Assembly (NCBI GenBank): GCA_947589685.1
Contig: CANQCN010000007.1
Location: forward strand, 1 to 47,326
Length of the DNA stretch: 47,326 nucleotides
Direction: 5' to 3'
DNA from: an uncultured Clostridia bacterium
Lineage (GTDB): Bacteria; Bacillota; Clostridia; Christensenellales; CAG-314
Shown here: positions 15,257-16,003 of the stretch, piece by piece
How the letters are laid out: every line of letters starts with the position of its first letter
Numbering within the stretch: the stretch's first letter is position 1
The notes under the pieces: generated by a model
The model's input: only the letters and a program-made list of their open reading frames with translations
What the model was told of the DNA's origin: nothing
Database searches by the model: none
Position numbers and translations under genes: made by a program

Positions 15257-15586
15257 TCAATAAACGACGCTACCCAACGCCGCCGCGATCACGATCACGT
15301 AGATCAAAATAACAATGAAATATAATACAATTTCAACAATGGAAATTATCAATCCCGCAGTTGCAAGCCCCATTCCCTTTTCGCCGCTTTCGCGAATTTG
15401 CTTGCGAGCAATTATCGAACAGATAAGCCCCGCTATCGCGAAAATAAAAGACATCACGAGACCGACGATCGCCATTGTGTTTGTTTTGGGTTCGAGACCT
15501 TGCGACTTGCCCGACGTAAGCACACCGCATTTGGGACAAACGACGGCTTGGTCGTCGATCTCGCTTCCGCAATTTTTACAATACAT
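15257..15586 (-). CDS. Zinc-ribbon plus DUF4190-like small membrane protein
   Basis: MYCKNCGSEIDDQAVVCPKCG zinc ribbon followed by two TM helices; GGAGG-type RBS upstream. Confidence 0.85.
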   Translation of the reverse strand: MYCKNCGSEIDDQAVVCPKCGVLTSGKSQGLEPKTNTMAIVGLVMSFIFAIAGLICSIIARKQIRESGEKGMGLATAGLIISIVEIVLYFIVILIYVIVIAAALGSVVY

Positions 15587-15616
15587 AGTTTTTCCTCCGT
15601 ATTTTTATTTTTGTAC

Positions 15617-15645
15617 AGTATACTCCCATTATAATGGGAAGTCAA
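15617..15645 (-). promoter_or_regulatory. Promoter of the zinc-ribbon gene with an embedded operator-like palindrome
   Basis: TTGACT-N17-TATACT; the spacer contains TCCCATTATAATGGGA. Confidence 0.7.
15624..15639. promoter_or_regulatory. Operator-like palindrome 1
   Basis: TCCCATTATAATGGGA, a perfect 16-bp inverted repeat. Confidence 0.65.
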
Positions 15646-15652
15646 GTATTTT

Positions 15653-15668
15653 TCCCACTATTGTGGGA
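15653..15668. promoter_or_regulatory. Operator-like palindrome 2
   Basis: TCCCACTATTGTGGGA, same TCCCA-N6-TGGGA layout, 29 bp from palindrome 1; longer arms TTTTCCCAC/GTGGGAAAA. Confidence 0.65.
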
Positions 15669-15708
15669 AAATATCCGTATGATGAAAGACATTATAAAAG
15701 GCGAGGCA

Positions 15709-15927
15709 ATGCCGTACGCCGCAAAAAACGTGTTTCCCGAACGGTTGAAATCGCTCAGACAGGACAAAAACATAGGTCAGATACAATTGGCAAAGGACCT
15801 CGACGTGGGCAAATCGGTGATAAGTCTGTGGGAAAGGGGCGAATGTGAGCCGACACTGTCCAAGTTGGTAGCCATAGCAAACTATTTCGGCGTTTCGATA
15901 GACTATCTGGCGGGATTGGAAAACTGA
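15709..15927 (+). CDS. XRE-family HTH transcriptional regulator
   Basis: FPERLKSLRQDKNIGQIQLAKDLDVGKSVISLWERGECEPTLSKLVAIANYFGVSIDYLAG; start MPYAAKN assumed (track starts at 15634). Confidence 0.85.
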   Translation: MPYAAKNVFPERLKSLRQDKNIGQIQLAKDLDVGKSVISLWERGECEPTLSKLVAIANYFGVSIDYLAGLEN

Positions 15928-15974: not shown

Positions 15975-16003
15975 TTGACGGGGCGAAAACTTAGTTGTAT
16001 AAT
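15975..16003 (+). promoter_or_regulatory. Promoter of typA
   Basis: TTGACG-N17-TATAAT upstream of GGAGAAAAG-ATG. Confidence 0.75.

Follow-up and report, generated by a model that had tools for sequence, protein, structure and literature searches.

Two palindromes in the DNA analysed here (the window, 47,326 nucleotides from an uncultured Clostridia bacterium) are very probably the twin operators of the XRE repressor encoded beside them, which would block the promoter of a divergent zinc-ribbon gene at site 1 and its own gene at site 2. Comparison across genomes takes this proposal beyond an earlier sequence-only reading of the same DNA: the layout is a family-wide cassette; related XRE proteins are each paired with other predicted operator sequences; and site 2 overlaps a probable leaderless promoter of the XRE gene itself, which would imply autoregulation. 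What began as a guess from a single sequence thereby becomes a regulator-operator pair that can be tested and has dozens of natural variants, and the zinc-ribbon/DUF4190 membrane protein of these mostly uncultured Clostridia is assigned a putative dedicated local regulator. We regard the order-restricted family of twin-operator switches, with its readable specificity pattern, as a modest but real discovery.

Twin palindromes in a divergent intergenic region

The intergenic region at 15587-15678 lies between a minus-strand gene for a membrane protein of 109 aa with a zinc ribbon and a DUF4190 domain (15257..15586; PF13828, E=1.6e-13) and a plus-strand gene for an XRE-family regulator of the HTH_3, Cro/C1 type (15679..15927; 82 aa; PF01381, E=5.9e-14). 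The regulator scores 52.3 bits against PF01381, above the gathering cut-off of 23, and is a member of HTH_3. The predicted operators 1 (TCCCATTATAATGGGA, 15624..15639) and 2 (TCCCACTATTGTGGGA, 15653..15668) are both exact TCCCA-N6-TGGGA palindromes, located precisely where the sequence-only reading had placed them; their separation of 29 bp is a start-to-start distance that leaves 13 bp in between. That reading had also called for a genome scan, and the motif proves not to be scattered: in the 1,475,231-base assembly the exact sequence occurs at these two places only, and a reversed control pattern does not occur. Dinucleotide shuffles of the window, with one mismatch allowed, gave a mean of 0.56 matches. 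Together, these three results argue that the palindromes are more than chance. An extended motif with one mismatch matched three other places in the whole genome, and its reversed control also matched three. Because these extras are no more numerous than those of the control, a wider regulon outside the locus was rejected, and a regulator whose regulon would be limited to its own locus is favoured.

A consensus promoter scan of the intergenic region returned a single promoter, on the minus strand, consisting of TTGACT (15645-15640), N17 and TATACT (15622-15617) and reading into the zinc-ribbon gene, whose Shine-Dalgarno sequence GGAGG lies at 15598-15594. Its -35 element falls within the conserved 13-bp linker between the sites. 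Among the 55 aligned TCCCA loci, across which operator 1 is conserved, the -35 is TTGACT in 47 and the -10 is TATAAT in 41. Site 1 covers 16 of the 17 spacer bases, very nearly the complete filling that had been claimed for it, and its position between the -35 and -10 elements agrees with the earlier suggestion that occupancy would block RNA polymerase. Computed from coordinates, site 1 is centred near -21 of this promoter and site 2 near -50.

Each palindrome could also fold into a short hairpin, and we therefore weighed whether both act in RNA, as terminators or attenuators, instead of as DNA operators. No terminator-like site was called at either palindrome, however, and the T-runs stand before the stems, not after them. 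Neither predicted transcript would include site 1, which is upstream of both, and within a clade the arms are nearly constant rather than showing compensatory pair changes. On these four grounds the RNA reading was ruled out; we consider it extremely unlikely.

A candidate leaderless promoter for the XRE gene

For the XRE frame the most likely start is the ATG at 15679, 10 nt after site 2; comparison with orthologues favours it over an internal ATG at 15709, which would give a protein of 72 aa. The start codon lies 10-13 nt 3' of site 2 in 53 of the 55 TCCCA loci. A Shine-Dalgarno-like sequence precedes it in one of the 55 and in none of the other 54. The right arm of operator 2, which stands immediately 5' of the start codon, overlaps a candidate -10 element of a leaderless XRE transcript, GAAAAT (15667..15672, plus strand). 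This hexamer is present at the same place in 46/55 TCCCA loci, its final T is invariant across the aligned loci in both main operator classes, and its distance to the ATG is compatible with a leaderless transcript. A -35 element for this promoter was recognised neither by the promoter scan of the locus nor in the aligned loci, which makes the leaderless start a prediction. Relative to that start, computed from coordinates, site 1 would be centred near -47 and site 2 near -18. This arrangement suggests that the XRE mRNA is leaderless and self-repressed.

The site pair is conserved with the XRE gene

When 41 relatives were searched with the protein, close XRE homologues came up in five genomes, G014 (93%), G019 (77%), G031 (73%), G005 (69%) and G029 (59%), two of which (G031 and G029) belong to other families than the window genome. 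All except G005 carry twin sites at exactly the 29-bp spacing. Relatives without an XRE orthologue have 0-3 isolated TCCCAN6TGGGA matches each and never the 29-bp pair. Within the order, the 45-bp pair with 29-bp spacing is found in 24 of 396 genomes, spread over five families. None of the 373 genomes from other orders of the class has it, and a class-wide draw gave two matches only, the window genome and G065, both within the order. Across 84,980 species genomes a scan found at least 35 loci with the 29-bp spacing; among the matches listed, these lie in records labelled Clostridia, Christensenellaceae, Eubacteriales or Pumilibacter, and an XRE homologue adjoins the pair in all cases. The isolated matches in relatives speak for chance palindromes or a dispersed repeat. 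That account has next to no probability here, given that the 29-bp pairs occur with the XRE gene and are conserved across families, that the reversed control pair is found in 0/396 genomes of the order, and that the window genome holds no exact site beyond the two.

When the upstream DNA of 146 distinct XRE homologues was searched letter-free for two similar palindromes with 5-bp arms, 24-36 bp apart, a twin pair was found for 85 of the 146 versus 2 of 730 shuffled upstream regions; some loci in this set had been chosen by the motif itself, and those reached by protein similarity were also counted separately. Twin operators accompany 23/23 protein-reached XRE proteins that are at least 70% identical. 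At 58-70% identity the count is 14/22, the strict pair being missing in the other eight, several of which show diverged versions. It is 26/43 at 50-58%, 6/21 at 45-50% and 1/12 below that.

Pairs of the motif at other spacings, in Mediterranea, Treponema and others, were rejected as instances of the same switch, being repeat arrays or isolated cases. In one Mediterranea sp. MAG (JAISIX0100..., including L035, L049, L051 and L084) TCCCAN6TGGGA pairs with 22-bp spacing occur on many contigs, frequently as arrays; these pairs probably form a family of dispersed palindromic repeats that has no relation to the XRE cassette. One Treponema sp. MAG (JAISAE0100...; L085, L090, L097 and L107) has tandem arrays with the motif every 23 bp.

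The exception among the close homologues is instructive. In G005 (L007) the XRE frame has lost one residue and carries Glu in place of Lys in the recognition helix, and the region upstream of the XRE gene is scrambled, both palindromes being gone. The -35, the -10, their 17-bp spacing and the open zinc-ribbon gene are all kept. Loss of the sites from a retained promoter argues that the regulator, and not the promoter, is the reason why the spacer letters are maintained.

Operator letters track the recognition helix

Proteins with the recognition helix VGKS are paired with TCCCA-N6-TGGGA, those with VSKG or VSNG with TCTTAC-N4-GTAAGA, those with LSNAS with TCTAATTATAATTAGA (the TCTAAT class, at 31-bp spacing) and those with VSYS or SSES with ACTCAA-N4-TTGAGT at 28-bp spacing. 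Residue 46 (82-aa numbering) is the clearest correlate: Ser accompanies CC at operator positions 3-4 in 58/58 loci (36/36 protein-reached), and Gly accompanies TT in 18/18 (18/18 protein-reached). One locus (L264) combines the helix VSKS with an operator that is still TCCCA, which indicates residue 46 and not residue 44. Replacement of L50 by Gln accompanies A to G at operator position 5 in L225, L226 and, partly, L246. L226 (G284:C11) has a tandem pair of XRE paralogues next to TCCCG-type operators, and each of the two carries Gln at the L50 position. In the alignment, S46 and L50 of the window XRE correspond to V33 and Q37 of P22 c2, both of which contact DNA in that repressor.

On a tree of 85 regulators, built on 67 columns, operator class changes six times, against a mean of 27 with shuffled labels. 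In essence the tree holds a single CC/TT switch, so that the perfect correlation does not amount to many independent tests; the tree result indicates that operators travel with their regulators, and repeated evolution of a code is not shown by the correlation. Three genomes (G176, G065 and G384) each contain paralogues of different operator classes, which means that class is tied to the regulator, not to the genome.

These observations bear on the identity of the ligand. Neighbouring genes need not be ligands, and another transcription factor could in principle bind the palindromes; yet across families the pair of sites goes with the XRE clade, and the operator letters shift with the XRE recognition helix, different classes occurring with paralogues of one genome. 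We consider a different factor very unlikely. The divergent XRE protein, the ligand that the sequence-only reading had put forward, is instead favoured by its co-conservation with the pair, by letters that follow its recognition helix even within genomes, and by the joint decay of protein and sites in one relative. Co-conservation and covariation thus lend indirect support to sequence-specific binding of palindromic operators by an XRE dimer.

We lean slightly towards a broader reading, in which genomes of the order hold sets of XRE switches that are paralogous, insulated from one another and share one frozen frame (operator, a linker of about 13 bp with the target's -35, operator, and leaderless XRE start), each with private letters set largely by S46/G and L50/Q, as a readable specificity code for divergent promoters. 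The paralogue set is a ready series for studying how DNA specificity changes in small Cro/C1 proteins, and possibly a source of orthogonal repressors for synthetic circuits.

Proposed mechanism and comparison with known regulators

We propose that an XRE dimer at operator 1 would occupy the spacer between the -35 and -10 elements of the divergent promoter and thereby deny RNA polymerase access to the zinc-ribbon/DUF4190 membrane-protein gene. At operator 2, a second dimer would cover the -10 element and the start of the XRE gene; as this gene is probably transcribed as a leaderless mRNA, binding there should result in negative autoregulation. Binding, repression and any cooperativity between the two dimers are predictions from sequence.

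What is new here is an order-restricted, paralogous family of such switches, which would work like lambdoid repressors and the C proteins of restriction-modification systems. C proteins of the C.Csp231I/C.EcoO109I type are small HTH autoregulators that bind CTAAG-N5-CTTAG twice, with 18 bp between, upstream of their own gene, which gives a leaderless transcript (PMC4321490, PMC4824078); they carry an SQE sigma-contact motif (PMC4824078). The window XRE is likewise a small HTH protein with twin palindromes upstream of its own gene, and the leaderless trait is predicted at this locus from the absent Shine-Dalgarno sequence and GAAAAT. Unlike C proteins, it has TCCCA-N6-TGGGA sites 13 bp apart, its putative target is a divergent membrane-protein gene, and it reads GQI where SQE is expected. 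No restriction endonuclease or methyltransferase gene adjoins it, and for want of this linkage we do not place it in the C-protein group.

The C-protein parallel raises the possibility of a dual-acting regulator, in which a dimer at operator 1 activates the XRE gene while repressing the divergent gene, and operator 2 caps XRE expression at high dose, as with C proteins and lambda PRM. Such activation would fit an XRE promoter that has no recognisable -35, and C proteins, whose dimer activates when bound at OL, typically combine twin operators with leaderless transcripts (PMC4824078). The GQI sequence, however, means that the acidic residue of the sigma contact is missing, and one locus (L236), with a near-match beside the XRE start and no recognisable site 1, appears to retain operator 2 only. 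We therefore regard dual action as unlikely.

Among solved structures, P22 c2 in complex with DNA (2r1j) is one of the closest relatives of the window XRE. As with the lambdoid phage repressors (P22 c2, 434 and lambda), the predicted operators lie within divergent promoters, and the lambda cI mRNA from PRM is leaderless. Unlike those repressors, the window XRE has no C-terminal oligomerisation domain, and its locus is chromosomal with two sites, not three. The best NCBIfam match is the RstR-type small phage repressors (NF041951), at 53.4 bits, below the 80-bit cut-off and thus outside that family; unlike RstR-type repressors, the window XRE neighbours housekeeping-type genes. A phage immunity region was rejected as an explanation, since no viral contig with a 29-bp pair was found (five with paired motifs have other spacings), phage homologues are all below 60% identity, and the neighbours are not phage genes. 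In the open-access literature on XRE proteins with DUF4190, on the motif and on leaderless XRE autoregulators, we found no earlier account of this switch.

Divergent targets and neighbouring genes

The divergent gene begins 25-45 nt from site 1 at 32 loci; it has a Shine-Dalgarno sequence at 31 of these, and its product contains a zinc ribbon at 28 and is predicted to include a membrane segment at 29. The divergent gene does not encode a zinc-ribbon protein in every locus. At L038, L088 and L092 the gene divergent from the XRE gene resembles phosphoglycerate kinase and lies about 200-540 bp off; these cassettes seem to have lost or swapped their zinc-ribbon target. XRE genes of the TCTTAC/TCTCA class at L010, L253 and L292 stand opposite another divergent family, which shares an LTVTNKR-like motif and resembles a PH-like membrane protein. 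Further neighbours of the XRE gene are a glmS-like SIS/GATase gene and a translation-GTPase-like gene. A strong sigma-70-like promoter for this downstream translation-GTPase-like gene, TTGACG-N17-TATAAT, lies on the plus strand at 15975-16003, outside the operator region.
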